Assembly: GCA_016342445.1 (NCBI GenBank)
Contig: JAEIOF010000008.1
Location: 1-35,520 of the forward strand
Direction of reading: 5' to 3'
DNA: 35,520 bases
From: Verrucomicrobiota bacterium
Lineage (GTDB): Bacteria > Verrucomicrobiota > Kiritimatiellia > Kiritimatiellales > Tichowtungiaceae
In this document: positions 113-19,042 of the stretch, piece after piece
Position numbering within the stretch: the stretch's first letter is position 1
Layout: each line of letters begins with the position of its first letter
Notes under the pieces: generated by a model
What the model was told of the DNA's origin: nothing
Seen by the model: only the letters and a program-made list of their open reading frames with translations
Database searches by the model: none
Position numbers and translations under genes: made by a program

Positions 113-928
113 TCATTTCACCTCATCAATTGCGTTCAGCTTTTTCCAAAGCTTGGAAAGTTCGCTCGTCGGAATCATATTCGGGCCATCGGAAAGCGCC
201 TTCGACGGATCGGGATGCGTTTCAATAAACATTCCGTCCACGCCGACCGCCGCGGCGGCCTTCGCGAGATAGGGAGCGAACCGTCCGTCGCCGCCGGATG
301 TATCGCCCTGCCCGCCCGGAGATTGTACGGAGTGAGTTGCATCGAAAATCACCGGATAGCCCAGCTCCCGCATAATAATCAGACTGCGCATATCGGCCAC
401 CAGCGTGTTGTAGCCGAAACTCGCGCCGCGCTCGGTCAGCATAATTTTCGTATTGCCGGTGGACTCGATTTTCTTCACGACATTGGCCATATCCCACGGG
501 GCGGCGAACTGCGCCTTCTTCACGTTCACCACGGCGCCGCTTTCGCCGGCGGCCACCACGAAATCGGTCTGTCGAATCATGAAGGCGGGCAGCTGGATAA
601 TATCCACCACCTTGGAGGCAATGTGGATTTCTTCAACGCTATGTACATCGGTTAGAACCGGCACGTTGTACTTCTCTTTGATCTCCGCGAGAATTTCGAG
701 CCCCTTGGCGATGCCCGGCCCTCGGTAGGAGTTGATCGACGTGCGGTTGGCTTTGTCGTAGGAGGCCTTAAACACCAGCGGGATATTCTGGCGTTTCGCC
801 ATTTTCACCAGCTTGTCGGCGATTTCCATGCACCCTTCGCGGCTTTCGATCACACACGGCCCCGCAATCAGCGCCAGCGGATTATTCCCCCCGAACTTCA
901 CACCCTTCACATTAATCGTCTTAGTCAT
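113..928 (-). CDS. kdsA: 3-deoxy-8-phosphooctulonate synthase (Kdo-8-phosphate synthase)
   Basis: This cytoplasmic enzyme condenses phosphoenolpyruvate with arabinose-5-phosphate to give Kdo-8-phosphate, the precursor of the lipid A-core linker. The 271-residue product is close to the usual length. It shows the family start GPCVIES (about residues 23-29), the FKASYDKANR segment, TDVHS, IQLPAFMIRQTD and the DATHSVQSPGG loop. The ATG overlaps the last codons of kdsB by 8 bases, and its ribosome-binding site AAGGAG (936-941) lies inside kdsB, so the two are probably translationally coupled. The C-terminal codons for SKLWKK are formed by a perfect copy of the dispersed palindrome (144-158). Function is near certain from family motifs and the neighbouring kdsB. 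Confidence 0.97.
   Translation of the reverse strand: MTKTINVKGVKFGGNNPLALIAGPCVIESREGCMEIADKLVKMAKRQNIPLVFKASYDKANRTSINSYRGPGIAKGLEILAEIKEKYNVPVLTDVHSVEEIHIASKVVDIIQLPAFMIRQTDFVVAAGESGAVVNVKKAQFAAPWDMANVVKKIESTGNTKIMLTERGASFGYNTLVADMRSLIIMRELGYPVIFDATHSVQSPGGQGDTSGGDGRFAPYLAKAAAAVGVDGMFIETHPDPSKALSDGPNMIPTSELSKLWKKLNAIDEVK
144..158. repeat. Perfect intragenic palindrome copy (TTCCAAAGCTTGGAA)
   Basis: Within the last codons of kdsA; the minus strand reads SKLWKK. Confidence 0.9.
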
Positions 929-1688
929 CGCCCTGCTCCTTTAAAATTCGTTCAACCTTTTCGATATCCTCCGGCGTATCGACGCCGATGCCGACATCGT
1001 CCACCTGCAAAACATTCATACGGCAACCGATATGCAACGCACGCAGCTGCTCGAGCTTTTCGAGGTTCTCCAGCTGACACGGCGGCTCCGCCACCAGCTT
1101 CAAGAGATAATCGCGGCGATAGGCATAGATGCCGATGTGCCGCCAGTGCGCACCCGTCGCGTCGGTGCCCGCGTCGCGAACAAACGGAATCGGCGCACGC
1201 GAAAAATAGAGCGCCTGCCCGTCGCGGCTGAAAACAGCTTTAACAACAGAAGGGTTATTTAAATCGGCCTCCGTTTGAATCGGCGCCGCGGCGGTGGCCA
1301 TATCCCAGTCGCCGGAAAGCATCACCTCGGCAAGCCGGTCGATCAGCTCCGGCTCCATCAGCGGCTCGTCGCCCTGTATGTTGATCAGCACATCGCAATC
1401 CCGACCCGCAACGGCTTCGGCAATGCGGTCGGTGCCCGACGGATGATCGGCCCGGGTCATCACCGCGTCGACTCCCGGGATACCAAACGAAGCCACCGCA
1501 TCGACAATGCGCTGGTCGTCGGTGGCGATCAGCACGGCGTCGAGCAACTTGGCTTTCACCACCTGCTCCGCCACACGCTGAATCATCGGTTTGCCCGCGA
1601 TCATCGCCAGCGGCTTGCCCGGCAGGCGGGTCGAAGCCCAGCGCGCCGGAATCACGCCGATCACACGGCTGGTTTTACTTTTCGTCAT
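921..1688 (-). CDS. kdsB: 3-deoxy-manno-octulosonate cytidylyltransferase (CMP-Kdo synthetase)
   Basis: Activates Kdo with CTP to CMP-Kdo, the donor for Kdo transfer to lipid A; cytoplasmic. The 255-residue reading from the ATG at 1688 begins with IPARWASTRLPGKPL, the nucleotide-binding signature of the family. It also carries NIQGDEPL and, near the end, the GVDTPEDIEKVE segment typical of KdsB. A longer in-frame reading to 1787 adds 33 residues that overlap the DUF3108 gene and have no family counterpart, so the start at 1688 is preferred. It overlaps the upstream DUF3108 gene by 14 bases and kdsA by 8 bases. The operon therefore places both Kdo-committing steps together. Confidence 0.96.
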   Translation of the reverse strand: MTKSKTSRVIGVIPARWASTRLPGKPLAMIAGKPMIQRVAEQVVKAKLLDAVLIATDDQRIVDAVASFGIPGVDAVMTRADHPSGTDRIAEAVAGRDCDVLINIQGDEPLMEPELIDRLAEVMLSGDWDMATAAAPIQTEADLNNPSVVKAVFSRDGQALYFSRAPIPFVRDAGTDATGAHWRHIGIYAYRRDYLLKLVAEPPCQLENLEKLEQLRALHIGCRMNVLQVDDVGIGVDTPEDIEKVERILKEQGDD

Positions 1689-2460
1689 CTCCGTCCTTCT
1701 TCTCGGTAATCCAGAAATCCTCTCCCGGCCCGCTGACGGACCGGAGCGTAACGCGTGCCCGACCAAACGGAACCTTGATTTTGGCAAAGGTCAACAGCCG
1801 GCGCGAGTCACGCGAGATCCAAACCGTAGCTTTTCCTTTGCGCACAAACAAGCCGTCAAACTTCGCTTCCGGCTCCATTTTCAAACTGGGCACATCGTGC
1901 TCATATCGCGGCAGGTCAACCCCCTCCACTCCCTCGGCGCTCAAAATCAGCTCGTAAATTTTCTCATCCGACATCACGCGATACGTTGCCTTCTGATTCT
2001 CCTCCAACAACTCCGAACGCAGGAAATACATAAAGCTGATCAAATCGCGGGTGTCGGGCCCGATCTCATAGCTTTTGGTCACCTTTTTACCGGTCTGCTG
2101 CTCGTAATGCGCCATGCCCTTCTCATAATCGAAGGTTGTGATCTCGTGACAGCGATAGCTCCCCTCCTGCAGATTTTTTGTATAGCGGATCGGCAGAAAG
2201 GTCACCGGATCAATCAGACTTTCATTCACATCGTCCACCTTGAAGATGTGATTAAAAAAAGAATAGGTCTGCGCGCGCACCCGAAGCGCCAGCACATCGC
2301 GCCCCTCGAAGGTTTCCATCTGCGCCGAGGACTCCGCCCACGCCACCGGAATCCCGTTCCAGCTGATGGTATACGTCAGCACCTCACCGATCGGAAACGG
2401 CAATTCGCCGAAGGCGCTGCAAAACGCCAGTGCCAGACAGATCAAAACAATGCGTCTCAC
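1675..2460 (-). CDS. DUF3108-type exported protein
   Basis: An exported protein of unknown function whose body resembles the DUF3108 family of periplasmic or outer-membrane-associated proteins. The start chosen is the GTG at 2460, because a strong ribosome-binding site (GGGAGGA) lies 9 bases upstream and the protein then begins directly with a signal peptide (RRIVLICLALAFCSAFG). A TTG 21 bases further upstream would place non-signal residues before it. The mature part has the family-like pattern of a beta-rich domain: GEVLTYTISWNGIPVA near the N-terminus, then FLPIRYTKNLQEG and the DTRDLISFMYFLR segment. It sits between dCMP deaminase and kdsB in a tight operon, which hints at an envelope role, but this is inference. 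Confidence 0.72.
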   Translation of the reverse strand: MRRIVLICLALAFCSAFGELPFPIGEVLTYTISWNGIPVAWAESSAQMETFEGRDVLALRVRAQTYSFFNHIFKVDDVNESLIDPVTFLPIRYTKNLQEGSYRCHEITTFDYEKGMAHYEQQTGKKVTKSYEIGPDTRDLISFMYFLRSELLEENQKATYRVMSDEKIYELILSAEGVEGVDLPRYEHDVPSLKMEPEAKFDGLFVRKGKATVWISRDSRRLLTFAKIKVPFGRARVTLRSVSGPGEDFWITEKKDGDDEK

Positions 2461-2464
2461 GGAA

Positions 2465-2938
2465 CTATTCCTCCCGCACAAACTGACGACAGATCACGCC
2501 CGCCTCTGCGAACAGCGCGCGCGCCTGATCATTAAAGTGGTACTCCTTCTCGTAGACCACTTCCGAAATTCCGGCGTTGATAATCATCTTCGTACACATC
2601 AGACAGGGGCTGATCGTGCAGTAGAGCATTCCGTCCTTCACCGCAATCCCATGATAGGCCGCCTGCACAATCGCGTTCTCCTCAGCATGGCAGCAGACGC
2701 AATCGCCCAGCGAATGGCCCGACGGCGCATCCGAATTACAGCGCGCGCACCCCCCCTCGTGGCAGTTGGCAATCCCGCGCGGCGTACCGTTATAGCCGGT
2801 CGAAATAATCCGCCGATCGCGCACAATCACCGCCGCCACCTGACGCCGGCAGCAGTTACCGCGCCGCGCCACCACATGGGCAATGTCCATAAAGTACTCA
2901 TCCCAGCCGGGACGTTTGATTTCATTCATGCCGCGCAT
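2465..2938 (-). CDS. dCMP deaminase (ComEB-type cytidine/deoxycytidylate deaminase)
   Basis: Zinc enzyme deaminating dCMP to dUMP for thymidylate synthesis; cytoplasmic. The 157-residue product has the zinc and catalytic HAE motif (residues 84-86, CHAEENAI), the PCLMC motif (111-115) and the extra Cys/His-rich insert (CHEGGCARC to GDCVCC) seen in the dCMP deaminase/ComE protein 2 group. Two ATGs are possible, at 2938 and 2929 (MNEIKRPGWDEYF). Neither has a clear ribosome-binding site, and the family usually starts close to the second. It is the first gene of the dCMP deaminase > DUF3108 > kdsB > kdsA run. The name ComEB is historical and is not evidence of competence here. Confidence 0.92.
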   Translation of the reverse strand: MRGMNEIKRPGWDEYFMDIAHVVARRGNCCRRQVAAVIVRDRRIISTGYNGTPRGIANCHEGGCARCNSDAPSGHSLGDCVCCHAEENAIVQAAYHGIAVKDGMLYCTISPCLMCTKMIINAGISEVVYEKEYHFNDQARALFAEAGVICRQFVREE

Positions 2939-2986
2939 GATACGGGATGCGGGATGCGGGATGCGAGATTTATCCGAATCCCGGGG
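2939..2986. repeat. Tandem heptamer repeat (GGGATGC)3 in a short intergenic gap
   Basis: The gap between the secreted 1133-residue protein gene and dCMP deaminase contains three head-to-tail GGGATGC units (2944-2964) and a degenerate fourth (GAGATTT). It has the look of short-period simple repeats found between genes in many environmental bacteria. It occupies the place where the promoter or ribosome-binding site of the dCMP deaminase operon would be expected. Confidence 0.75.
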
Positions 2987-5900
2987 TTATTCTTCCATCC
3001 GGATTTCAACTTTGTAGTAACCGCGCGGATCGGCAACTTGATTGGTGAAACTGCATTGCGACCACGGGATATTGCTTTCCAAACATTGGAAACCGCTCAG
3101 AAGATTAGTCGTCCAGTACACACTGCAAACGCGCCCGGAGACAGCGTTCCACTGCAAAATTCTGTCGGGAAGAATCGATGTCAGAAATTCACTTTGCGGA
3201 TCGTTTGGATCGATCCCGGCGATATAGGCTTCGAGCACTGTGTTCACTCCGTTGGAACAAAGGTTGGCTGGTGAAGCTCCAGCACTTCCGAAGTAGTCCT
3301 GTTCCCATGTGTCGGGCAGCTCATCGCCGTCGCTGTCTGCGGCCGGCGTGATGAACATGACGTAGGAGCCGTCGACTTCATCCACGCCATCATCCGACAT
3401 GATGACATCATCATTAATCAGCACGATGTATTTTCCGTTGGCAAATCCGACACCACCGATCTGGTTGTCGCCGCAGGCCATGAGCGGGAATCGGCTGCCA
3501 ACCAATGCGCCGGAGGCGCTGATGTGCTGTCCGTACATATCCCAGTCTCCGTCGGTCTGCATGTCGGACCAAACCGCCAGATAATTGAAGCCATCGAAGG
3601 CAAGACTGGTGACCATCTGAGCGCCCGGATCGTCCACAATGGTAATGACATCGCCGACCAAAAGGCCGTTGGTGCTGACCAATTGCCCGAAAGCACCCCA
3701 GATTTCCGATTCATAGCCGCCGGTTTCGTCGTTCCAAACGACCAGATAGTTTTGTCCATCAAAGACGACCGATTTCGGATTATCACTCGGCACGGCACTG
3801 GCATTCACGGAAATTTCTGTTCCGGGCACGCCGGATGGGCTGACGAAGCGGCCGCGAATCTCTTCGTCGTTAAAATCCTCACACCAAACGACGAAAAAGT
3901 TTCTTCCGTCAAAGGCGACATCGCTTTCCTGTCCATAACCAGTACTGATGCGAAACTCAGCACCAACACTCCCGGATGGATCGACGAGGCGCCCGGCAAT
4001 GTAACGATTGGTTGAGTCTTCACCTAACGCAGGATTAATGAGCCGGGTATAGGTGACAAGATATTTTCCTCCGCCGTAGGCCATGACCCGGATGCCGTCG
4101 TACCAAATGCCAGTGGAACTGATTGCAAACGGCTCGCCGTTCGTTGTTCCTGATGGACTGATGAACTGTCCGTAGATCTGATAGCTCCCGTTGGTCAGTG
4201 TGCCGAGCCCGTCGTCTTCCCAGACCATCAGATAGTTGGTGCCGTCGAAGGCGAGCGCGGTCGACATTCCCGTTCGACCGGTTAAGATGGGAGTATCGAT
4301 TTTCGTTCCATCCGCCGAAAGGAGTTGTGCTTCCAGCGTCGTCGGTTCCGCATTATGATTTTCAATACCAATAAGCCAGTTTGTTCCGTCGAAAGCGGCG
4401 CTCATCGCCAACCCCTGTTCCGCCACAGGATAAACTGTTTTTACTTCAGCTCCATCGAGGGTCTCGGCCCAACCGGACGTGCCAGCCAGATGATAAACGG
4501 ACACGCCGGAGGTCCCGGAAAAAATCGATGCGCCAAATACCGGCGAATCGCCATCAAAACAGACGGCCTTTAACGCCGTGCAATCGCTGAAAACAAGATT
4601 TCCGACGGAGGTTACATTGGTTGCGATTGCAACACTGGTCACATTGGAGCAGGAACTGAAAGCGCCGTCGCCGATGGCGACAACCGGAAGGCCATCCAGT
4701 GTGTCGGGCACATCAACGGCACCACCGGAACCGATGTATGCAGTGATAGTGATTTGACCCGCGTTGGTGGTGTAAAGAAATTCAGGAACTGACGGAAATG
4801 TGATTGAAAAGTTGTCGGCATATAGATCGCCAGAGGCAAGACCAACGGAGGCCCCGTGGACCGAACCCGCTATAGCAACAGCAAAGAGGGAGTTTGTTGT
4901 CATTTCCCAGTTGCTGGCGGGATCATCCACATCGATCCATCCCAGCACGTTGCCATTGAAAGAAGCGGTCAGGATTTTGCTATCGGCATCAAAAGCTATT
5001 TTTACCCGGCCATCGGTATCGCCAGTCGCGACATAGCCATAGTTCGGCACAGCGGCAAGGTCGCTTCCGTTAACTTTTGAATTCATTTCATAGCCGCGAT
5101 ACGTGTCATCATCGTCGTTATGTAGATCTAGCGCAATCGACAGTGTATCCCCAAACGTTGCATCATCCTGATTCGCCACAGCCAAGTTCACATTTACCGA
5201 CGTACCGGAATCCAGCGAAATACCACTCAAATGGACATCCGCTTCGGTTTCCCAGTCCTGCGTATAGCTGCCGGTACTTTCAACCCAGGGTCTAAATACG
5301 CCGGATGCGTCGAGCCCTGCGGATTTGAGAACCTCTAACCGTCCATTGATCTCGTTCAAGAAAATATTAGTGGTTGAAAAATGTATATCATCGCCCCACC
5401 TGGCCATGTCTTTTGAGTTGTCATCAAAATCATCGCCGGAAGCGGTTCCTCTAAGCGTATAGGTTGCGGTGAGCGTGATGGCCTGCGCAGGCATGGTAAC
5501 GGTCGTCGTTGCCGCCGTAACGCTCGCCAAATACTGTGTCGAGCCGACCCAATGGTCGAATATCTGGCCGGACGGGGCGGCGGAAGCCGCAATGATTACC
5601 TCGGCGTTATTTGTGTAATTTCCGCCGCCGGTTCCACTATTAATTGCGAGAACATATTCAAGATCATCACCGGATCTGAATTCAAAGTTGTCGGCAGAAA
5701 CCTCGCTACTGCTATTGGTATAATCGCCCCACATACTCCCGCCCAATGCAAAAGAAAAGCCAGAGCTCGCGTCCATTCCCCAGTCTGTTAAGGCATCATC
5801 GACATCCAGCAAACCCAGAGGGATGGCGTCATAGGAGGCGGTCAATATTTTGGTTGAAGCATCAAAAGCGACTCGCAAACGTCCATTCGTCTCTGCCGTC

Positions 5901-6388
5901 GAGTTGTAGCCATAGTTCGGCACGGCAAATAATTCCGTATTGTTGACAGCCGGTACTACCTCAAACCCGCGTTCCATTTCCTCCAAACAGAGCGTGATGA
6001 CCAAACGATCGCCCAGCGTTTCGTTGTCGGCACTGGCAACAACCAGAAACATTTCAATTCCCACATACTGCGGAAGATTGAGCGCACCCACATTGACATC
6101 CGTCGCGACCTCCCAATTCTGAGTGTAACTGCCCATCCCGGCAACCCACGGGCGGAGAATCACTATGTCTTCTATTTCAGAGGAACTCCCAGCAAACTCC
6201 AGATGCCCATTGGTTTCGCTCAGAACTGCATTGAGGCCGTCTCCGACGAGCATATCATCGCCCCACGCAGGACTTTTAACCCCGTCATCAAAATTGTCGC
6301 TGGTGGGGATATCTGCCCATGCAGAAGAGGCAACCGCCATCAAAAGAAAACCCGCGACCAACGCACCCGATACTTTTACTAATTTCAT
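2987..6388 (-). CDS. Large secreted multi-domain protein (LamG-like modules, bacterial repeat, BspA-type LRR, propeller-like repeats, TSP3-like tail)
   Basis: A 1133-residue exported protein of unknown function. The ATG at 6388 is preceded by AAAGGAG at good spacing and followed by a signal peptide (MKLVKVSGALVAGFLLMAVASSAWA). Visible modules are: two related domains (about 28-235 and 315-530) sharing DNFDDG/DDFDDN, GSYTQ(N/D)WE and (V/A)AVPNYGY, reminiscent of concanavalin-like carbohydrate-binding modules; between them a bacterial surface repeat ending PAQAITLTATYT; a BspA-like leucine-rich stretch (about 535-650, DGAFSSCSNVTSV); and several propeller-like repeats of the type AFDGTNYLMVWEDD (660-1010). 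A calcium-binding-type DSDGDELPDTWE and a C-terminal beta domain (LQWNAVSGRVCSVYWTTN) follow. That tail is common in large secreted proteins of Verrucomicrobia and Kiritimatiellota. A role in binding polysaccharide or surfaces is inference. Confidence 0.75.
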   Translation of the reverse strand: MKLVKVSGALVAGFLLMAVASSAWADIPTSDNFDDGVKSPAWGDDMLVGDGLNAVLSETNGHLEFAGSSSEIEDIVILRPWVAGMGSYTQNWEVATDVNVGALNLPQYVGIEMFLVVASADNETLGDRLVITLCLEEMERGFEVVPAVNNTELFAVPNYGYNSTAETNGRLRVAFDASTKILTASYDAIPLGLLDVDDALTDWGMDASSGFSFALGGSMWGDYTNSSSEVSADNFEFRSGDDLEYVLAINSGTGGGNYTNNAEVIIAASAAPSGQIFDHWVGSTQYLASVTAATTTVTMPAQAITLTATYTLRGTASGDDFDDNSKDMARWGDDIHFSTTNIFLNEINGRLEVLKSAGLDASGVFRPWVESTGSYTQDWETEADVHLSGISLDSGTSVNVNLAVANQDDATFGDTLSIALDLHNDDDDTYRGYEMNSKVNGSDLAAVPNYGYVATGDTDGRVKIAFDADSKILTASFNGNVLGWIDVDDPASNWEMTTNSLFAVAIAGSVHGASVGLASGDLYADNFSITFPSVPEFLYTTNAGQITITAYIGSGGAVDVPDTLDGLPVVAIGDGAFSSCSNVTSVAIATNVTSVGNLVFSDCTALKAVCFDGDSPVFGASIFSGTSGVSVYHLAGTSGWAETLDGAEVKTVYPVAEQGLAMSAAFDGTNWLIGIENHNAEPTTLEAQLLSADGTKIDTPILTGRTGMSTALAFDGTNYLMVWEDDGLGTLTNGSYQIYGQFISPSGTTNGEPFAISSTGIWYDGIRVMAYGGGKYLVTYTRLINPALGEDSTNRYIAGRLVDPSGSVGAEFRISTGYGQESDVAFDGRNFFVVWCEDFNDEEIRGRFVSPSGVPGTEISVNASAVPSDNPKSVVFDGQNYLVVWNDETGGYESEIWGAFGQLVSTNGLLVGDVITIVDDPGAQMVTSLAFDGFNYLAVWSDMQTDGDWDMYGQHISASGALVGSRFPLMACGDNQIGGVGFANGKYIVLINDDVIMSDDGVDEVDGSYVMFITPAADSDGDELPDTWEQDYFGSAGASPANLCSNGVNTVLEAYIAGIDPNDPQSEFLTSILPDRILQWNAVSGRVCSVYWTTNLLSGFQCLESNIPWSQCSFTNQVADPRGYYKVEIRMEE
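3077..3091. repeat. Perfect intragenic palindrome copy (TTCCAAACATTGGAA)
   Basis: In the C-terminal domain of the large secreted protein; the minus strand reads GFQCLES. Confidence 0.9.
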
Positions 6389-8957: not shown

Positions 8958-8997
8958 CCACCCCTTCGATTTGAGAAACGGAAGGCTTTTTACGCAC

Positions 8998-9870
8998 ATG
9001 AATAAACTGATTATAGGATTACCGAAAGGGAGCCTGCAGGAGTCCACCTACTCCCTGTTCGCGAAGGCCGGCTTTAATATCTCCGGCAGCTCGCGTTCCT
9101 ATTTTCCCTCGATCGACGATGACGAAGTCGAACTTCGCCTCCTGCGCTCGCAGGAAATGAGCCGCTACGTTGAACTGGGCATGCTCGATGCCGGGATTTC
9201 CGGACTGGACTGGATTGCCGCCAACGACTCCGATGTACAGATTATCTGCGACATGGTCTACTCCAAGGTGAGCAAACGCCCGGTTCGCTGGGTGTTGGCC
9301 GTGCCGCAAGACTCGCCCATTCAGTCGGTCAAAGATCTCGAGGGCAAACGGATCGCCACCGAAGGCGTCGCTCTGGTCGAGCGCTGGCTGGCCAAAAACG
9401 GCGTTAAAGCCGAAGTCGAATTTTCATGGGGTGCCACCGAGGTGAAAGTCCCCGAGTTTGTCGACGCCATCGTCGATATCACCGAAACCGGCTCCTCGCT
9501 GCGTGCGCACAATCTGCGCATTGTCGAAACGCTGATGGAGTCCTACACACAATTTTTCTGCAGCAAAGAGGCGTGGGCCGACGACTGGAAACGGGCGAAG
9601 CTCGAGAAAATCTCCCTGCTGTTGAAGGCCGCCCTGAATGCGGCGGACAAGGTGCTGCTCAAGATGAATGTGAGCAAAAACGATCTTCCGCAGGTGAAAG
9701 AACTGCTCCCCTCGCTGCATGCGCCGACGGTGAGCAGTCTTTCCGATGACGGCTGGTATGCCGTCGAAACGGTCGTGAACGAATCGGTGGTGCGGGAGAT
9801 TATTCCCGAACTGAAAGCCGCCGGTGCTGAAGGAATTATTGAAATCGGCTTAAACAAAGTGGTAGCGTAA
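8998..9870 (+). CDS. hisG: ATP phosphoribosyltransferase, long form
   Basis: First enzyme of histidine synthesis: joins ATP and PRPP to phosphoribosyl-ATP. From the ATG at 8998 the product has 290 residues and begins [14 protein letters not shown], the usual HisG start. It contains DAGISGLDW, the PRPP-binding region [12 protein letters not shown] and [22 protein letters not shown]. The C-terminal third (about residues 215-290, ending [14 protein letters not shown]) is the regulatory domain of long-form, histidine-inhibited HisG, so no separate HisZ is needed. GGAAGG lies about 11 bases upstream; an earlier in-frame ATG at 8971 has no support. No other his gene is nearby, so the pathway is dispersed. 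Confidence 0.97.
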
Positions 9871-9988: not shown

Positions 9989-10075
9989 TGGAGTCATGAG
10001 ACATTGGAGTGCTGGAGTATTGGGGCTTATTAAACTCCCCTCCATTACTCCAACTCTCCATCACTCCACTGCTCC
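9989..10075. repeat. Inverted 8-base-period array: TGGAGNNN units facing CTCCANNN units
   Basis: From 9989, five octamers (TGGAGTCA, TGAGACAT, TGGAGTGC, TGGAGTAT, TGGGGCTT) are followed after a short centre by CTCCATTA, CTCCAACT, CTCCATCA, CTCCACTG and CTCC (10040-10075). The two sides are reverse-complement-like and can pair as an imperfect hairpin. The array contains the start codon of the TPR lipoprotein. Confidence 0.75.
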
Positions 10076-12056
10076 TTTTCACTCCGCATCCCGCAACGCA
10101 TGGGTCTTTGGCGCCACTGGGCTCCTTGCCCTGTGTATCGGCGGATGTGCGGCCCCTTCCTCAAAGCCTCTGCTGAGCATCAGTGCTCAAGCGGGGGCTT
10201 TGTCTCATTTCAGTCTCGGGTTGCTGGCAGAAGCCAGCGGCGATTCTATCGCCGCGCTGCGGGAGTTGGAAGCCGCGATCCAGCTGGATCCCGGCGAGAA
10301 AACCCTGTATGCCCCCGCCGCCGCGGTCGCACTGAAAACGGGCCAGCCGGACAAGGCACTCCGAATCGCACGGCAGCTCAAAAAACAGCATCCGCAATCG
10401 ATCGATTCCATTTTGCTTCTCGCCCGGGTCGCGGCATTAAGCGTTCAGCCCGCTGAGGCTGAAGTTCTCTTTAAGCAGGCGGTCTTAAATTTTCCGGATG
10501 ATCCGGAAACCCATCTGGGTCTTGCCCAACTTTTCCTCTCGCAGAAGCGAATGCCGGAAGCCATCCAGACTCTCGAATCCGCTATGGAGCAGCTGAACGA
10601 ACCTGTCGATCTTCTTCATCTGCTCGGAACACTGATTATTGAAAGCGCCCGCGAACAAACCGATCCGCAACAGGCGCAGAAAACGATCCGGCAAGGGATG
10701 GTTCTTCTGGAAAAAGCGCTCGAGATCGACCCGTCTGATCCGAAACGGTGGCAACAACTAGGCTATGTTTACCTCTCGATCAAACAGATTGAACCGGCGC
10801 AGGAGGCTCTCGAAAAGGCGCGAAGCCTGATGCCGTCCGATCTGGAACTGGCTCGACAAATTCTGGATCTGGCACTCCAGACTGGAGACTATGACCGGGC
10901 GCTGGAACTCTGCGACACCCTGCCCGCGCAAACAGGAGCCGATCCCGATCTTTGGCTTCAATATCTCGCAGATCAAACGACCGACGAACACCTCGACGAG
11001 CTGATTGCCTATCTTGAAGAACAACTTCTGCAAAAAAATCCGCCTGTTTTTTATTACGCTCAACTCAGTTCGATCTATCTGGATCACGAACGCTACGCCG
11101 AAGCGGAGAGCACTCTGCTCAAGGCGCTGGACACCCGCCCGGAAGACAACCGTCTGCGCACGGTGCTGGGCTACCTCCGCCTCCGGCAGGAAAAATTCGA
11201 CGAAGCCTACGCGGATTTCAACCAAATCCGAACCGAAGCACCGGAGGATGAATGGGCGCAGAATCCCTTCTTCGCATACAACTTCATGGTGGCGGCGCAA
11301 AAAAGTGGGCATCTGGAAGAGGCCGCCACAACCCTGGCAGCCACCCACACCAACAACCCGGTGGTGCTGAACGAGTACATGCACTCTCTGCTCACCGGAG
11401 AGTCGCCGGTTTCTCATCAGGCGGCAATTGATCTGCTGAACGCCTTCCACCGCATGAGCCCGGAAGCGGTCGAAGCCGTCTATTATTTGACCCTTCTTCA
11501 GGCCGAAGAGGAAGACTACGAAACGGCGCTGGAAAATGCCCGGCGCTTCGAGGTGCTGGCGCGGGATCAGGGAACAACCAATCTGCTGAACGGATTTTTC
11601 TATTATCAATACGGCTCACTCTATGAACGGACAGGTCAGTTCGAAGAGGCTGAAAAACAGTTTTTTAAGGCCATCGAAACGGGCGACCCGGAGACCGTCG
11701 CCGCCGCGCAGAACTACATTGCCTATATGTGGGCCGAACGCGGCGAAAAGCTCGAGCGGAGTCTTGCTCTCATCGAAAAAGCGCTGGCCGGCGAGCCGGA
11801 CAACGCCGCATTCCTCGACACGCTTGGTTGGATCTACTACATGCAGGGCCGCTACGAGGAGGCGCTCGAACAGCTGAAAACGGCCAATGGACTGATGGAC
11901 GGTGACCCGACTATTTGGGAGCATCTGGGCGACACCTATCAAAAACTGGGCGACCGGAATGAAGCTTCCAAACATTGGAAAAAAGCACTCGATCTCGCGC
12001 CGGACAGGCAACTCCTAAAGCGGCTGGAAAACAAAATCAGCCCAGACAGTCCCTGA
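9996..12056 (+). CDS. Tetratricopeptide-repeat outer-membrane-type lipoprotein
   Basis: A 686-residue protein of many TPR units, a scaffold for protein-protein contacts in the periplasm. A signal segment (WVFGATGLLALCIGGC) with lipobox-like CIGGC puts the lipidated Cys near residue 51. TPR helices then run almost to the end (for example LDPGEKTLY, LEIDPSDPKRW, FLDTLGWIYYMQGRYEEAL, TIWEHLGDTYQKLGDRNEA). The start is odd: the only ATG upstream of the signal (9996, AAGGA at 9983-9987) lies inside an 8-base-period repeat array, so about 30 N-terminal residues (for example ITPTLHHSTAPFHS) are repeat-encoded. No other start codon is evident before the signal segment. The palindrome copy at 11966-11980 encodes ASKHWKK. 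A role in envelope or secretion assembly is possible but unproven. Confidence 0.87.
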   Translation: MRHWSAGVLGLIKLPSITPTLHHSTAPFHSASRNAWVFGATGLLALCIGGCAAPSSKPLLSISAQAGALSHFSLGLLAEASGDSIAALRELEAAIQLDPGEKTLYAPAAAVALKTGQPDKALRIARQLKKQHPQSIDSILLLARVAALSVQPAEAEVLFKQAVLNFPDDPETHLGLAQLFLSQKRMPEAIQTLESAMEQLNEPVDLLHLLGTLIIESAREQTDPQQAQKTIRQGMVLLEKALEIDPSDPKRWQQLGYVYLSIKQIEPAQEALEKARSLMPSDLELARQILDLALQTGDYDRALELCDTLPAQTGADPDLWLQYLADQTTDEHLDELIAYLEEQLLQKNPPVFYYAQLSSIYLDHERYAEAESTLLKALDTRPEDNRLRTVLGYLRLRQEKFDEAYADFNQIRTEAPEDEWAQNPFFAYNFMVAAQKSGHLEEAATTLAATHTNNPVVLNEYMHSLLTGESPVSHQAAIDLLNAFHRMSPEAVEAVYYLTLLQAEEEDYETALENARRFEVLARDQGTTNLLNGFFYYQYGSLYERTGQFEEAEKQFFKAIETGDPETVAAAQNYIAYMWAERGEKLERSLALIEKALAGEPDNAAFLDTLGWIYYMQGRYEEALEQLKTANGLMDGDPTIWEHLGDTYQKLGDRNEASKHWKKALDLAPDRQLLKRLENKISPDSP
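11966..11980. repeat. Perfect intragenic palindrome copy (TTCCAAACATTGGAA)
   Basis: Perfect half-sites, in frame to give SKHWK near the C-terminus of the TPR lipoprotein. Confidence 0.9.
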
Positions 12057-12105: not shown

Positions 12106-12594
12106 TCATGGGGTCAGGTTGCCACCTTTCCCGTCTTCTTTTTCCTGCCGTTCAAATAATTCCGGATTCAACCCATCTAAAACTCCATCAATCCCGCGAT
12201 TAAGCTCCAGAATAACGTCAAGTCCTTGCGACAGATCAGGATCCAATCGGACAAAATATCGGCTGGCAAGAAAAGGAAGGTGCCAAACCTTTGGTGCCGA
12301 GCCAACGATGGTCATGATCGTTCCTTTTGGTACTTCACATTGAAATGCCATCCAAGACCTCTGGGGGATCCTTTCTGATTCCAAATATGCACGCGCCGTC
12401 TCTCTGCTGACTCTCCTATCATTAAGATTATAATATGCAGCCTCCAAATACACGGGCTGGATTATTTTGTACCGATTCCCATATTGTAGCTCTTCTGGAC
12501 AACTTGAGTTAGAGGAGATGACGCTAAGCGCAATGAAAAGCGCAAGCATGATTCCAGTACAGACTATTGCATAATTAAACTTTTTCATTTGCAT
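12106..12594 (-). CDS. Small membrane-anchored protein overlapping the RHS gene; candidate partner or immunity protein
   Basis: A 162-residue protein I do not recognise. The N-terminus has one hydrophobic segment (about residues 8-27, IVCTGIMLALFIALSVI), followed by a soluble part probably in the periplasm. It starts inside the end of the RHS gene (ATG at 12594; RHS stop 12585-12587), with a strong GGAGGAGG ribosome-binding site, so its translation is tied to the RHS protein. Small genes directly after RHS toxins are often immunity genes, which makes this a candidate; no immunity family is recognised. The C-terminal GGNLTP is encoded by a TGGGGTCAGG-like motif (opposite strand) that resembles repeat ends seen in other genomes, so the natural end may have been altered. 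Confidence 0.65.
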   Translation of the reverse strand: MQMKKFNYAIVCTGIMLALFIALSVISSNSSCPEELQYGNRYKIIQPVYLEAAYYNLNDRRVSRETARAYLESERIPQRSWMAFQCEVPKGTIMTIVGSAPKVWHLPFLASRYFVRLDPDLSQGLDVILELNRGIDGVLDGLNPELFERQEKEDGKGGNLTP

Positions 12595-15500
12595 GGCGTT
12601 GCCTCCTCCGGAGGACTTGGCTGCGGAAGTTTTTCAAAAGCTCGCAACATTTCTACAGCTACCGCCGCCCAGTACATCGGATACATCGAAGGCTTATTAA
12701 CCCGCCAGTCTGGGAATCCGGCCATTGTTGCCCAACCCACAAAGCTGTCATGCATCTGGCCAAACGTATAACCTGCCGGCAGATACCGCTCAATGAACTC
12801 ACTGATTGGGCCGCGTGGCGGCACTATGGTATCTGGACGTCCGACAACGCCAGATTCTTGCCAAGGTTGCCGAAACCAATAAAGCCCCATAGGATCAACA
12901 AAGTTGACGGGGTTATTTCCACAGAACACATATTGATTCAAGCCGCCTGAAATCCCAATGGGGTCTTTAGAGAGCCAACGACCGGTGACGGGGTCATACC
13001 AACGGGCACGGAAGTAGTAGAGCCCAGTTGCGGAATCATGCTCGCGGCCTTGGAACATATAGCGATTGCCGATTGCGGATTCAGTCAGTTCGGTGCCTGT
13101 CGAATTGAGAATCGTCGGGCACCCCCATGCATCGTACGAATAGGATTCAACGATATTTCCAAAAGAGTCAATTAGGGCACAAACGGTATTTAGATGGTCT
13201 TTGAGAGCGTAGCAGGTGTTCGTTCCGGTCGCGTTATAAATCGTGATGGCGAGCAGATTATCGATACCCGGCCCCCAAATGTACGAGCGAAGAATAGTTC
13301 CGCTTTCGTCGAGATCGGCCACGATCTGATTGCCATCGTAGACGTATTGCTCAACATTCGTTCCTTCGGTGCGCGAAGCGCGACGCCCCAGCACGTCATA
13401 AGAATATTCAACCGCGGATGTCGCGGATGAAATGGATGTGAGCTGGTATTGGCTGTTCCAGTCAAGGGAGAGTGATTCAGCGTACTCGGTTCCGAAATAC
13501 GAAACATTCGTCAGACAACCTGCCGCGCTGTATCCGTACTGCGCATTGGTGACGACGGTCAGGAATATTTCATTCGTTGCATACCCCATGTTTCCGGCCT
13601 GATCGCGGATGGCGGCAACGACCCGCTGGGTTCCCATGCCGGTGACGAAGGCGTCGAGCCAGAAGTTCGTACTGTCAGTTTCAGGCGTGACCGCCACTGA
13701 ATTGCTGACGGTTAGCTGGCCCCAGCGGTTGTCGGTGCCGATGGTCTCAGAGGAGTACCCTTGAACTTCCAATGTTCGGAAACTTTCAAATCCGTTGGTC
13801 GAGGTTGCAGTCCATGAGGCAAGGCGATTTCCAGCGCCGAGACTGTAATTAACCGAGCTGCCGGGATTTTGTTTAGTCAGGCGGTTGCCAGCAAGGTCAT
13901 AGCTATACATTGCGAACTTGGCAGGCGAGACACCTGCAGTACGAACTTCGGAAGTCAGACGGTCGAGGTCGTCATATTGATAGGCGGTCGAGATAGAACT
14001 CGACCCTCCAACTAGACGATTTGTGATCATTCCGGCGGCATTGTACTGGTAATTAAAGGAAAGGATGCTTGCGCCTCCGCTATTTCTCCAGTCGATGGAG
14101 GTGATACGATCCATGATGTCGCACTGGTATTCCGCGCGGAGGCTGGCGTTGCTGACTGTGGAAATCAAACCGTTATCGGGATTGTAGAAATACTGAAACA
14201 TACAATTCGTTGGAGGCGTTGAAATCAAAGTCACCCGCTCTGCGGCATCATATTCATAAGCAGTCGTGATGGAGCGCGGCCCTCCGAAATCAACGGAAGA
14301 ATTCGTGACGTTGCCGACGGGATCATAGGAATAGTTCGCCACGGAAGACACCGAAAACACGGAACTAGAAGATGAAACCGAGGTGAGCCATGAAGCGGAA
14401 TTCCAATCATTGGAAACCATGACGGCGGAATTTTCCAGGGTTTGGACAAGTCCGTTTTTAAGGTAAGTGTAGCGGTTGGTTTCATCGGGATAATAGACAG
14501 CGGCAAGCCGCCCGTCGCCAGTGTATTCGTTGCTGACGATGGTTCCGTCAAAACGGGTGATGGAGTCCACAAAATCTCCGACGAGATAGCGGATGGACAT
14601 CGTCTGATTTTCAACGTTGGTTACGGTTGTCGGACGGGCGAGCGGATCGAGCACATAGCTTTCAACGGGGCGGCTCAGTTCGTCTCTAATGTTGAGCGTA
14701 TTGAACTGCTGGTCAAAGTCATACGACACCGTCACGTTGGTGTTGCCAAGCTGTCGGGAAATCGCTGTAAGCTTTCCGTTAGGGGCATAGGTGTAGCTAC
14801 TTATTCGTCCGGCGCGGTCAACGTGATTGGTCACTTTGCCCAGCGCATTGTAGTCAAAAGTTTCGTACAAGCTGTCGGCATAATCAACTCGCTCAATCCA
14901 GCCCAACGGGGTAACGGTATAATCCGTTTCGCGTCCGCCGGGCAGTGCGCTGTTGGTCAGATGGCCGAGGGTGTCATACCCGAGGGTTATCGTTGGCCCA
15001 GTCTGCGGAACCACCGTTTGCGGATAGCCAAGGGCATCGTAGGCAAAAATCGTTGAATGCCCGTTGGCATTAGTCACTGCGGCGAGCAACCCATTGGTTG
15101 TATAGCTGTATCTGGTCTCTGCCGTTTCGTTACCGGAAAGATAAAGCCGTTCTGCTGAAGGCATCCCGTTCGTATATTCATACTCGGTTTTAAACCCCTC
15201 TGGATCGACAACGGACGTCACCAGCTGCCAATCCGAATGCCAAGTGGTTTCAGTCACATGATCAGGTTCTGCTGAAAGACCAAAGGCCTCCTCGGTTACG
15301 TTGTGAAATTCATCATAAAATCGATAAATTTTTATCCAGTTGTTGGTATCCGCATCATACGTTGTTTTCTGCTGAACATTTTTTCCGCCATCGTACACAA
15401 AGGTTACCTTTCCAGTCACCGCGTCGAACCACTCTTCCTGTACGCGACTGCTGTTCGGATCAATGGTGTAAACGTGTGCAAAACTGTTGCTGCTGTTCTC

Positions 15501-16682
15501 ATAGGTAACCACACTTTGATTATTCGACGAATCATAGCTCACGGAGTGCCCGTACAAGTGATCATCCGTTAAATACATCCCAGAGGCCTTACCCCCGGAA
15601 TAGCTGTAATAATAGTCATTTCCAACCGCATCCACCCTCTGCGTCAAAAGAAGCGATGTGTCATAGGCATAGGCTTCCAAATACTGATCTGAATCCACTT
15701 GTCGAACGGCCTGTGTCAAAACCCCTTCCGGAGCGTACTTAAACGATATCGACAAATTCGTTGCCGCTATTACGGAAGTTAACATTCCGTTTGAGTAGGC
15801 AAAATTCAGCGTGCTTCCATTACTGTGTTCCGCACAACTCAGCAACTGGTTGCTGTAGATCAGAGAGACTCCGCTTCCCCATTCGTCTGATATGGACTGG
15901 AGTGTCCCGTTTGTATCGAATAAATAGCTGACACCAGCAGGGAAGGACAAAACATGCATCCCATTAGTTTCTTCGGTCAACTTCCAGTTATTGTCCAAAT
16001 TCGAAGAATATTCACCAGAATCATATTTTAGAAATGAAAACCGCCTTGCATCCCCTGAGACAACGGTTGCGTTGTGATCTTCCCCATGAAATTCCCAATC
16101 ATAAGAATGCCGCCAACCTTGGCCTAGCGGGGAATTGTTTGTTGAAACGCTGTTATAATATCGGATGAAATCCAATGATACGTTGGGGGTCGGGATAGCG
16201 ATATCTGCCACGGGAAAATGATTATTTGCTGTGATAAAATTGATGGGTTCTTCTGTGTTTGCCTCACCAGGTTGTGGGTCAATAGGATCTGGGCGCGGTG
16301 TATAATCCCTGATCGGAAGAGTCCCAAAAACAGGCCCAGTTTCGTAGTAGATAGAATCATTTGTAGAACTCCCATCAACTGGAACCCACTTTATCGACAA
16401 TGACACTGATGAAGAAAGAGTATCATGTCCTATGGGGATCGGAGTGTAGTCACCTGCGATGATATTATTGTGACTGATAATATACGGCGGATAGACATCT
16501 GTATGCCATTCCTCATTATGATAACTGGTGTATATCGCACCATAGGTGCAGTTTGCAGGTTCCGAAAGTGGGTTTTGTAAATACACGTACTGCATAAGAG
16601 CAAACGCATTAACCGAGCAGAAAAGGGCAGACAGAAAAAGAATTGTTTTTAAGACAAGCACTTTAAAAAAACAAGATCTCAC
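12585..16682 (-). CDS. RHS/YD-repeat secreted protein with DUF6531-like N-terminal region and a unique 96-residue tail
   Basis: A 1365-residue RHS-family protein; such proteins form a hollow beta-cocoon that encloses a C-terminal effector. The start is GTG at 16682, overlapping the TGA of the upstream gene, with AAGGTGG upstream, and is followed by a signal peptide (LKTILFLSALFCSVNAFA). A DUF6531-like segment (EEPINFITANNHFPVADIAI, then YYNS and LGQGWRHSYDW) precedes many YD repeats (for example YDALGYPQTV, YDPVGNVTN, YDDLDRLTSEV). The RHS core ends GREHDSATGLYYFRARWYDP, then DPMGLYW near residue 1269. The last 96 residues (from FRQPWQESGV, with FGQMHDSFVGWAT and PSMYPMYWAA) are unlike the repeat and are the candidate effector domain, fold unknown. 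Three palindrome copies lie in the gene. Confidence 0.9.
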   Translation of the reverse strand: MRSCFFKVLVLKTILFLSALFCSVNAFALMQYVYLQNPLSEPANCTYGAIYTSYHNEEWHTDVYPPYIISHNNIIAGDYTPIPIGHDTLSSSVSLSIKWVPVDGSSTNDSIYYETGPVFGTLPIRDYTPRPDPIDPQPGEANTEEPINFITANNHFPVADIAIPTPNVSLDFIRYYNSVSTNNSPLGQGWRHSYDWEFHGEDHNATVVSGDARRFSFLKYDSGEYSSNLDNNWKLTEETNGMHVLSFPAGVSYLFDTNGTLQSISDEWGSGVSLIYSNQLLSCAEHSNGSTLNFAYSNGMLTSVIAATNLSISFKYAPEGVLTQAVRQVDSDQYLEAYAYDTSLLLTQRVDAVGNDYYYSYSGGKASGMYLTDDHLYGHSVSYDSSNNQSVVTYENSSNSFAHVYTIDPNSSRVQEEWFDAVTGKVTFVYDGGKNVQQKTTYDADTNNWIKIYRFYDEFHNVTEEAFGLSAEPDHVTETTWHSDWQLVTSVVDPEGFKTEYEYTNGMPSAERLYLSGNETAETRYSYTTNGLLAAVTNANGHSTIFAYDALGYPQTVVPQTGPTITLGYDTLGHLTNSALPGGRETDYTVTPLGWIERVDYADSLYETFDYNALGKVTNHVDRAGRISSYTYAPNGKLTAISRQLGNTNVTVSYDFDQQFNTLNIRDELSRPVESYVLDPLARPTTVTNVENQTMSIRYLVGDFVDSITRFDGTIVSNEYTGDGRLAAVYYPDETNRYTYLKNGLVQTLENSAVMVSNDWNSASWLTSVSSSSSVFSVSSVANYSYDPVGNVTNSSVDFGGPRSITTAYEYDAAERVTLISTPPTNCMFQYFYNPDNGLISTVSNASLRAEYQCDIMDRITSIDWRNSGGASILSFNYQYNAAGMITNRLVGGSSSISTAYQYDDLDRLTSEVRTAGVSPAKFAMYSYDLAGNRLTKQNPGSSVNYSLGAGNRLASWTATSTNGFESFRTLEVQGYSSETIGTDNRWGQLTVSNSVAVTPETDSTNFWLDAFVTGMGTQRVVAAIRDQAGNMGYATNEIFLTVVTNAQYGYSAAGCLTNVSYFGTEYAESLSLDWNSQYQLTSISSATSAVEYSYDVLGRRASRTEGTNVEQYVYDGNQIVADLDESGTILRSYIWGPGIDNLLAITIYNATGTNTCYALKDHLNTVCALIDSFGNIVESYSYDAWGCPTILNSTGTELTESAIGNRYMFQGREHDSATGLYYFRARWYDPVTGRWLSKDPIGISGGLNQYVFCGNNPVNFVDPMGLYWFRQPWQESGVVGRPDTIVPPRGPISEFIERYLPAGYTFGQMHDSFVGWATMAGFPDWRVNKPSMYPMYWAAVAVEMLRAFEKLPQPSPPEEATPCK
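13767..13781. repeat. Intragenic palindrome copy, one mismatch (TTCCAATGTTCGGAA)
   Basis: Lies in the RHS gene, where the minus strand reads FRTLEV. Confidence 0.75.
14401..14447. repeat. Two intragenic palindrome copies 32 bases apart in the RHS gene
   Basis: 14401-14415 is perfect (TTCCAATCATTGGAA, encoding VSNDWNS on the minus strand). 14433-14447 reads TTCCAGGGTTTGGAC (two mismatches, encoding VQTLEN). Confidence 0.8.
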
Positions 16683-17767
16683 GGCAGCACCACCTTTTCT
16701 AGAAAAGTCACAGGCTTACATATCCAAATATCAGGAGGAAGAATATCGGCATTATTCGGATCCGTTGAATCAACATACAGTTCCTGATAATCAGAAAGCT
16801 GATCGTCATCACTATCTGAATCCTCTGGATCGGTTTTATGAACAAACTTTTCGCGAGCATCGCAAATAGTGTCAAAATCGCTATCCACATCCATATTCCC
16901 CGCCCGGAAAAACCCAGTGATTTCTTCTGCTTCGGTCAACCACGTCACAACATTGGTACCAGATGGAGAGAGATCGTCCACTGCCACCATCCAAACATTA
17001 GAAACCAAATCGTCAGAAACATAAATCTCAAGATTACTGACCCCGGACGGGCAATAAACTGTCACATTGAGTCCATTGTTCACCGCCTCACCGGAAATCC
17101 AAATGTCGTTGGTGTGTTCGGCGGGAACCGACATCATTGCCATAATTTCATCCTTTTCCAACAGGCTCATCGATGCAACCGCCGCATCGCGCCGGACAAC
17201 CAAATCTGTCCACGCATTTTCTTCCGCCTTCAATGTGACGTCCCAAACAATACGTCTCGGAGAGAGCTCCCAAAACAGATAGACCCTTTCCTCCTCCGCT
17301 TTTTCTTCGGCACTCAGTGTAGAAAGCAAGTCAAGTGGGAGAAACTCCGGCGCATCAAACAACGCCTCACCTTTATACCGTTCACCATCAGCAGAACTGA
17401 GAACGACAATCTCACCGCGTTGCAGGTCTTCATAAATCAAAATGTGGAGTGGCAACTTAAGAGTCTGTGCGAGCTTGGATGAATCAGCCACATAATAGGT
17501 TCCGCCGGAATGATGCCATTGCCAATTGTCTGCCAAAAAAGACCAGTCGTCCTTCTCCATCGACGCGGCCACTTCTTCTGCGCCCAGCGGAAGCGGAAGC
17601 GGTGGAACATCCTCACGTGCTGAATAATACGCATCAACCAATTCACCCCATGAAGAAATAATTCTGGGCTGAATCATTAACTGATCCACCGCTTCAATCG
17701 CCACCGCCCCCAAAAGAAAAACTGCAATCCCCGCAACAAAAACTCCAACAAGCAATTTTCTTTTCAT
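16679..17767 (-). CDS. Anchored protein with C-terminal thrombospondin-3-like calcium repeats, RHS operon
   Basis: A 362-residue protein of unknown function, first gene of the RHS operon. The ATG at 17767 is preferred over the in-frame GTG at 17773, because AAGGG lies 5 bases upstream and the product then begins MKRKLLVGVFVAGIAVFLLG, a signal or membrane-anchor segment. The middle part is unassigned. A beta-rich segment around 215-290 (DIWISGEAVNNGLNVTVYC) precedes acidic repeats typical of TSP3-type calcium binding (DVDSDFDTICDA, DPEDSDSDDDQLSDYQE) and a short tail. The stop codon overlaps the RHS start (GTGA), implying coupled translation. The presumed role is as a surface partner of the RHS protein; this is inference from context only. 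Confidence 0.7.
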   Translation of the reverse strand: MKRKLLVGVFVAGIAVFLLGAVAIEAVDQLMIQPRIISSWGELVDAYYSAREDVPPLPLPLGAEEVAASMEKDDWSFLADNWQWHHSGGTYYVADSSKLAQTLKLPLHILIYEDLQRGEIVVLSSADGERYKGEALFDAPEFLPLDLLSTLSAEEKAEEERVYLFWELSPRRIVWDVTLKAEENAWTDLVVRRDAAVASMSLLEKDEIMAMMSVPAEHTNDIWISGEAVNNGLNVTVYCPSGVSNLEIYVSDDLVSNVWMVAVDDLSPSGTNVVTWLTEAEEITGFFRAGNMDVDSDFDTICDAREKFVHKTDPEDSDSDDDQLSDYQELYVDSTDPNNADILPPDIWICKPVTFLEKVVLP

Positions 17768-17823
17768 AATCACCCTTCAATTTCACCGAAAGAACCTACC
17801 AAAACCCAGACCTCTTGGACAAG

Positions 17824-17877: not shown

Positions 17878-18123
17878 ATGCTAAAAACAATTCATTCACC
17901 TGAGTATTCTGAGTTGCTCGATTGGTTGCGCACCCAACGCAAACAAAAGGGAATGACCATGCGTGATGTTGCTGAGAAACTAGATGTCCATCACTCTTGG
18001 ATCGGGAAAATCGAACAGAGTGAGCGGCGACTGGATATTGTCGAATACCTTCGGATCTGCAAAGCTCTGGAAATCGATCCGCACGAAGGGCTTAATCTTG
18101 TTATGAGCGCTATCAACCAGTAA
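17878..18123 (+). CDS. Small XRE-family helix-turn-helix regulator
   Basis: An 81-residue single-domain DNA-binding protein. Residues 13-66 form the Cro/CI-type HTH: LRTQRKQKGMTMRDVAEKL, then VHHSWIGKIEQSERRLDIVEYLRICKALEIDP, including the usual IGKIEQSERR recognition region. There is no ribosome-binding site, and promoter-like hexamers place the transcript start at the ATG. The upstream 104 bases, shared with the divergent RHS operon, contain two inverted repeats over the -35 and -10, fitting an autoregulator that could also affect the RHS operon. The 3' end overlaps the convergent fmt gene by 11 bases. No partner toxin gene (HipA- or HigB-like) is adjacent on the same strand. Confidence 0.88.
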   Translation: MLKTIHSPEYSELLDWLRTQRKQKGMTMRDVAEKLDVHHSWIGKIEQSERRLDIVEYLRICKALEIDPHEGLNLVMSAINQ

Positions 18124-19042
18124 GACGGTCCCCCGGCTGGAGCGGATGGCCTCGAAGGTACGCCGCCCCGTCCATAGCGCGTTTTCCCTCGGGCTGAACC
18201 TCCAGCAGGCGCAAGGCGTCTTCGCCCGTCGCCACCAGCGGACCCTCACCGGAGACATCCAGCAATTCTCCGGGACGCCCGGCACCCGATTCCACCCGCG
18301 CCCGAAAAACTTTTAACCGGCCGGAGCCCGCTTCACAAAAGCAGCCGGGCCACGAAATAAATCCGCGAATCCGGTTGTTCAGCATCCGGGCCGGCAGCGT
18401 CCAGTCCAGCCGTCCGTCCTCTTTCGTCAGCTTGCGCACTTCAACGGCGGCGGCATCATCCTGCGGCCGCGCGGCGACCGTACCGGAGCGGATCTGCTCG
18501 ACCGCCTCCATCAGAAGATCAGCGCCGGTCTGAGCCAGAACCGGGTCCATGGTCAGCGCGTTATCCTCCGGGCCGATGGGCACTTCGCGCTGACAAAGGA
18601 TGTCTCCGGAGTCCATTTTTTCGCTGACGTACAGGATGGTGACGCCCGTCATCGAATCGCCGTTGGCCAGCGCCCACTGGATGGGGGACGAGCCTCGGTA
18701 TTTCGGCAGGAGGGAGGGATGCAGGTTGATCGCGCCGCAGGGCGGAAGCGCCAGAACGGATTGCGGAATATACTGTCCGTAGGCAACCACAACGAACAAA
18801 TCGGCCCTCAGCTTGCGAAGAACCTCGAGGCTTTCAGCAGAGCCCACTTTTTCGGGAGAGAAAACGGGAACTCCCCTCTCCTCCGCGAAGGTTTTCACCG
18901 GACAGGGAACGGGGTTGAGCTTGCGCCCGGCGGGCCGGTCGGGCTGGGTGAGCACGCCAACGAGTTCATCCCGTGAACTGGCCAAAAGGTTTTCCAAGGT
19001 TTGGAAACCGATGGCGGCTGAACCGAAAAAAAGAACGCGCAT
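18113..19042 (-). CDS. fmt: Methionyl-tRNA formyltransferase
   Basis: Formylates initiator Met-tRNA using 10-formyl-tetrahydrofolate; cytoplasmic and essential or near-essential in most bacteria. The 309-residue product is of family length. The N-terminal domain starts MRVLFFGSAAIG and carries TQPDRPAGR and the formyl-donor site NLHPSLLPKYRGSSPIQWA. Then come VTILYVSEKMDSGDIL and a C-terminal OB-like domain from about residue 205 (RGFISWPGCFCE). The ribosome-binding site GGGAG lies 7 bases before the ATG, in the 14-base gap after the glycosyltransferase gene, so the two are probably cotranscribed. A perfect palindrome copy at 18992-19006 sits near the N-terminus and encodes FQTLENL. No def gene is adjacent. 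Confidence 0.96.
   Translation of the reverse strand: MRVLFFGSAAIGFQTLENLLASSRDELVGVLTQPDRPAGRKLNPVPCPVKTFAEERGVPVFSPEKVGSAESLEVLRKLRADLFVVVAYGQYIPQSVLALPPCGAINLHPSLLPKYRGSSPIQWALANGDSMTGVTILYVSEKMDSGDILCQREVPIGPEDNALTMDPVLAQTGADLLMEAVEQIRSGTVAARPQDDAAAVEVRKLTKEDGRLDWTLPARMLNNRIRGFISWPGCFCEAGSGRLKVFRARVESGAGRPGELLDVSGEGPLVATGEDALRLLEVQPEGKRAMDGAAYLRGHPLQPGDRLTG
18992..19006. repeat. Perfect intragenic palindrome copy (TTCCAAGGTTTGGAA)
   Basis: Lies in fmt near the N-terminal codons; the minus strand reads GFQTLEN. Confidence 0.9.

Follow-up and report, generated by a model that had tools for sequence, protein, structure and literature searches.

The RHS operon described here raises the question of whether its C-terminal tail and the small gene behind it encode a toxin and the matching immunity protein, or whether its products serve another role at the cell surface. 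The window, i.e. the whole stretch of 35,520 nucleotides that was analysed, is the entire contig C182 of a 2.09 Mb draft genome (92% complete). Three overlapping genes follow one another on its minus strand in the order P0003, RHS (P0001) and P0002 (Table 1), and their coordinates, strands and overlaps had all been given correctly in the original prediction. The P0003 gene, which starts with the ATG at 17767 or with an upstream GTG at 17773, overlaps the GTG start of the RHS gene by 4 bases (GTGA). The P0002 gene overlaps the RHS gene by 10 bases, or by 4 (ATGA) if its second ATG is the start. Judging from their layout, these junctions are tightly coupled in translation. The best explanation of the locus is a polymorphic RHS toxin of a Kiritimatiellota bacterium, exported via Sec and accompanied by a divergent XRE regulator, a reading to which a probability of about 0.58 is assigned.

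The operon is flanked by housekeeping genes resembling hisG (8971-9870) and fmt (18113-19042) and adjoins a gene for a TPR protein (9996-12056). As predicted, it is richer in AT than its surroundings, with a GC content of 48.6% in the three genes against 55.9% in the rest of the window and a GC3 of 0.43-0.53 against 0.56-0.77 in the other window genes. A divergently transcribed XRE gene, at a distance of 110 bases from the operon, has a GC3 of 0.49 and belongs to the same low-GC block. On the evidence of composition the operon may have been transferred as a unit, as had been suggested, but this unit should also take in the divergent XRE gene. Elsewhere in the window (2987-6388), a gene of somewhat low GC3 (0.56) encodes a further secreted surface protein of similar style, which is 1133 aa long and bears a DSDGDELPDTWE-type motif close to the C-terminus.

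Table 1. Features of the RHS locus, with positions in the window.
Feature	Position	Strand	Remarks
P0002, 162-aa exported or N-anchored protein, putative immunity protein	12106..12594	(-)	overlaps RHS stop; GGAGGAGG just upstream
RHS protein P0001, 1365 aa	12585..16682	(-)	signal peptide, DUF6531, YD repeats, Rhs-associated core; Pfam PF20148, PF05593; TIGR03696
Variable 98-residue C-terminal cassette, P0001 residues 1268-1365	12588..12881	(-)	putative toxin; homologues L006/L015, L007/L014, L051/L055
Predicted aspartyl autocleavage motif DPIGISGGLNQYVFCGNNPVNFVDPMGL	12882..12965	(-)	P0001 residues 1240-1267
P0003, 362-aa secreted companion, degenerate C-terminal TSP3 calcium repeats	16679..17767	(-)	homologues upstream of RHS in relatives; paralogue L097
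XRE/Cro-C1 HTH protein, proposed operon regulator	17878..18123	(+)	HTH_31/HTH_3; low GC3; divergent homologues near TSP3/RHS

The RHS protein and its C-terminal cassette

The N-terminus of P0001 is a signal peptide, seen in the sequence to end at NAFA. Pfam places DUF6531 at residues 145-217 and recognises the RHS/YD repeats (E 2.4e-24), and NCBIfam places the Rhs-associated core at residues 1183-1267 (E 9.8e-26). The core ends in DPIGI and, after 18 aa, DPMGL, the standard pair of autocleavage motifs. In Rhs1 of P. laumondii the equivalent pair directs aspartyl autocleavage right behind the second motif (PMC8636562), and by analogy cleavage behind DPMGL in P0001 would free the last 98 residues. 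In its sequence features (YD repeats with a core, paired DPxGL motifs and a swapped tail), P0001 fits the RHS polymorphic toxins, with a downstream immunity gene that is putative. Since Pfam detects no PAAR family in P0001 and no T6SS sheath family (PF05591, VipA/TssB) in its own 92% complete genome (G000), delivery by a T6SS appears unlikely. TcdB/SpvB partner domains were also sought with Pfam, which returned only RHS_repeat and DUF6531 in P0001 and nothing in P0003. A role as the TcC component of a Tc toxin is therefore not supported.

The tail had been judged not to be RHS repeat, which is supported. Its homologues take the corresponding position in other RHS loci and also occur in an array of orphan cassettes. 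A tail-swap comparison further showed that it is no fixed part of RHS proteins. Homology to the RHS proteins of relatives ends at the DPxG junction even at core identities of 59-72% (L077, L014, L020, L036, L027). L061, which is the nearest RHS protein of full length (41% over 1175 aa), carries an unrelated tail. Of the related RHS cores compared, which number more than 25, the window tail was found only in proteins of G022 and G085 and in contig-truncated proteins of G028, the others diverging at DPxG. Because related RHS proteins thus bear unrelated tails from the same junction, the tail is, by sequence comparison, a swapped cassette. Homologous tails in three other genomes could also be expected if the tail were the plain invariant C-terminus of an RHS family, but the divergence of most of the related cores at DPxG refutes that view and leaves it almost no probability.

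The tail family comprises four intact members, all from Kiritimatiellota/Verrucomicrobia MAGs. The window tail is common only to G085 (L015), G022 (L014), G302 (L051/L055) and two G028 contigs. Except for a small G302 fragment, no further members were found in 146, 346 and 388 genomes representing relatives, class and phylum. A scan of genome contigs recovered already known loci only, tblastn against plasmids and phages gave no matches, and viral contigs held no relative. Weak matches in L003, L004 and L008-L011 were dismissed as chance after in-frame reading, and L081 is a further weak match (E 7.6e-4). As far as tested, the family looks rare and restricted to the Kiritimatiellota/Verrucomicrobia group. 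The two G028 contigs (L062 on C177, L078 on C115) both break off within a window-type tail, at almost identical positions, probably owing to repetition of the cassette in that genome. In G022, a stretch of contig C21 (L014, 6337-9916) forms an orphan cassette array of partial RHS tails that includes the window's tail family, with a different small gene bearing an N-terminal export or membrane segment behind each truncated tail.

In an alignment of the four intact tails, P33, H42, D43, G53, N60, P62 and M64 are invariant, which yields a signature of H-D followed by N-x-P-[ST]-M. An AlphaFold2 model built on this four-row alignment is moderately confident (mean pLDDT 73) and all-helical, with helices at residues 23-31, 35-51 (bearing the HD), 56-63 and 65-81. 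The original prediction recognised no toxin fold, and the searches agree. The tail had zero matches in Pfam, NCBIfam and PHROGs, as did the whole RHS protein in PADLOC; a PDB profile search gave chance matches only (best E 0.014, enoyl-CoA hydratase; designed repeats), and Foldseek with the tail model returned nothing below E=1 in PDB or BFVD. A possible likeness between the HD motif and phospholipase A2 found no supporting match and was set aside. Most likely, the tail represents an all-helical family of putative toxins that is as yet undescribed, and comparative anatomy gives good support to its reading as a toxin cassette.

The probably exported protein encoded behind the RHS gene

P0002 is soluble except for a single hydrophobic stretch (KD19 peak 2.51) that follows a KK pair at the N-terminus, and the GGAGGAGG element upstream of its gene is a strong ribosome-binding site. 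It had been described as a single-pass membrane protein overlapping the RHS stop; the overlap stands, but an exported protein fits better than the membrane label. A homologue in G009 (57% identical) bears a typical cleavable signal peptide (cut between SYA and DG), and positive-inside topology would place the body of P0002 outside the cytoplasm. These two features make export the best reading for the family. The pair has a dN/dS of about 0.33 by two methods, which indicates purifying selection. P0002 had no match in Pfam, NCBIfam or PADLOC, and its structure model was poor (pLDDT 44; a long N-terminal helix, then mostly strands), so that its outline was not used.

The position of P0002 recurs in related loci, where in 23 of 25 cases a gene for 74-229 aa starts -23 to +56 bases from the RHS stop. 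Export or membrane segments were found in 17 of these 23 small genes and in 19 of 76 controls, which were short genes behind other large genes of the same loci (Fisher p=3.4e-5, only indicative, since the controls share the loci and the genes were classified by a simple hydropathy threshold). Such a proportion fits a polymorphic toxin/immunity system at the cell envelope. Tails and downstream small genes vary from locus to locus, and the tails of L060, L061, L069 and L070 are strongly hydrophobic (KD19 up to 2.85). The simplest reading of these sister loci is that they encode toxin/immunity pairs which would act at the envelope.

The immunity role originally proposed for P0002 has been weakened, as a coupled, exported gene is indeed present but its homologue in G009 sits between birA and murC, with no RHS nearby on the contig. 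The window-type tail is absent from G009, and 146 and 334 genomes yielded no true P0002 homologue besides this one. With this sole homologue away from RHS, the case for immunity is built on position, coupling and export, and the role is plausible but not proven. Alternatively, the tail could be a toxin while P0002 is a periplasmic helper or a hitch-hiking gene, with protection encoded elsewhere. The solitary retention of the homologue in G009 would suit such a role, as would the lack of detectable relatedness between P0002 and the partners of two other tail-family members. However, the gene overlap, the strong ribosome-binding site and the positional pattern in 23 of 25 loci speak for immunity, and orphan immunity genes without their toxin are a known phenomenon (PMC10539506), so that a P0002 unconnected with immunity is considered unlikely. 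The G009 gene fits such an orphan, but it is equally a homologue outside RHS loci, which the original prediction had named as speaking against immunity. Homology of P0002 to the G022 and G302 partner proteins was dismissed after profile comparison (E 0.53 and 0.38), the likeness of the G022 partner having come from forced alignment alone.

If the tail were instead an enzyme entering the target cytoplasm, the membrane anchoring of P0002 would be incidental. The window tail is not strongly hydrophobic (KD19 0.65) and its His-Asp is invariant, both in keeping with such an enzyme. Yet the P0002 body is predicted to lie outside the cytoplasm, the signal peptide of its homologue is cleavable, and the next gene carries an N-terminal export signal at all four tail-family loci, which makes cytoplasmic action improbable.

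Probable surface partner, with proposed regulator and mode of action

P0003 itself has no Pfam match, TSP3_bac included, and its repeats are degenerate; the calcium repeats originally attributed to it are nevertheless in keeping with a paralogue in the same genome (L097, contig C108 of G000) that is 73% identical over 330 residues and shares its aligned DxDxD motifs. The paralogue (779-4165, 1128 aa) contains six TSP3_bac units (7e-26), Chlamydia PMP repeats and a NIDO-like match, and is adjoined by a divergent XRE gene, with no RHS on the contig piece. Because L097 carries the N-terminal module of P0003 without RHS, this module appears to head other surface proteins as well. Homologues of P0003 occur in 38 of the 58 relatives searched, several of them directly upstream of RHS. 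Of the 22 RHS loci inspected, 15 have a TSP3-type gene no farther than about 1.1 kb upstream of the RHS (e.g. L060-L062, L069-L073, L078). The earlier view of the calcium-repeat gene as a non-standard addition to RHS loci is therefore wrong for this phylum.

Homologues of the XRE protein were found in 16 of 58 genomes. They stand divergent beside a TSP3- or P0003-type gene in L062, L097, L103, L115, L116, L117, L124 and L126, and in L062, L117 and L124 an RHS gene follows. Since a genome has about 30 such HTH genes but few of the P0003 type, this adjacency is estimated, without a formal test, to be far above chance. The XRE gene is probably part of the RHS module, and its product is proposed as the regulator of the operon. 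The closest XRE homologue (71% identical) is divergent from a large gene with an N run (L119, 6376-10446 on contig C58 of G003).

Alternatively, the RHS protein and its TSP3 partner might combine into a surface or adhesive complex, in which the tail would serve recognition, anchoring or as cargo and P0002 would be an accessory or assembly factor. RHS shells occur in non-toxic proteins too. The lack of a recognised toxin fold in the tail, the resemblance of the TSP3 partner to a surface protein, its paralogue with PMP and NIDO-like repeats and the location of the P0002 homologue away from RHS also point in this direction. However, tails exchanged at the autocleavage site and arrays of cassettes that are paired with small genes are hallmarks of polymorphic toxins, and the cleavage motif is hard to square with an anchor, so that such a complex remains doubtful as the function of the locus.

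For a polymorphic toxin, the preferred explanation, the XRE protein would govern the divergent promoter, and signal peptides would export the TSP3-repeat and RHS proteins for joint action at the cell surface, where export is read from sequence and the pairing is shown by conserved synteny. The RHS beta-shell would enclose the tail and, at the motif found in P0001, cut itself by aspartyl autoproteolysis between DPMGL and YW. The freed all-helical tail may then damage a neighbour cell in its periplasm or membrane, and P0002, to judge by its position, coupling and export, would shield the producer's own envelope. Points against this explanation are the lack of a toxin-family or fold match for the tail, the location of the only P0002 homologue off an RHS locus, and the dissimilarity of P0002 to the partners of two tail-family members.

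The locus resembles RHS polymorphic toxins (Zhang et al. 2012, PMC3482391; P. laumondii Rhs1, PMC8636562) in its YD shell, DUF6531 and paired DPxG motifs, in its swapped C-terminal cassette and small gene directly downstream, and in the orphan cassettes of relatives. It differs from them by a Sec signal peptide without PAAR, the lack of a T6SS sheath gene, an upstream TSP3 partner, a divergent XRE gene and an undescribed tail family. Tse5 of P. aeruginosa (PMC9637101, PMC10684867) is alike as an RHS shell delivering an envelope-acting (pore-forming) toxin, putative in the window, and several sister loci have hydrophobic tails, whereas the window tail is not strongly hydrophobic and its genome has no T6SS sheath gene. 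WapA-type RHS toxins (PMC12704120) share an own signal peptide for export, a C-terminal toxin and an adjacent immunity gene (both putative here), but WapA is Gram-positive while the window organism is diderm, so that the outer membrane must be crossed too. Ntox/Tox families (PMC3482391) are likewise small C-terminal domains of RHS proteins, some of them all-alpha, but the listed all-alpha families show other motifs (HxxD in Ntox15, [DNE]xxH in Ntox16), which sets the tail apart. It matched none of the described RHS toxin-domain families in the toxin models of Pfam and NCBIfam. A limited literature search found no paper on TSP3-RHS loci or on RHS in Kiritimatiellota, and this is weak evidence that they are new. 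Most likely, the tail toxin family and the recurrent layout of XRE, TSP3, Sec-exported RHS and small envelope protein are new, while the type of weapon is already known.

In diderm bacteria, knowledge of RHS toxins comes mainly from the T6SS. A recurrent Sec-exported RHS module with a surface partner and a regulator in a little-studied phylum would, if true, represent another way of delivering them, and the tail and P0002 are an undescribed candidate toxin/immunity pair small enough for direct testing. Tentatively, the module could be a phylum-wide, T6SS-free RHS weapon made up of XRE, TSP3 surface protein, Sec-RHS and envelope immunity, whose tails mostly hit the envelope and in which the window tail would found a family of all-helical envelope toxins with the signature given above. 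This broader view is possible, with the balance of probability against it.

Two loci of the same genus (L100, 570-6831; L101, 5411-10257) encode large proteins that share the TSP3 region of P0003 and a common '...D(I/M)KDVAY...' C-terminus, with similar secreted proteins encoded behind them. They may represent another exported modular system, one that lacks RHS.
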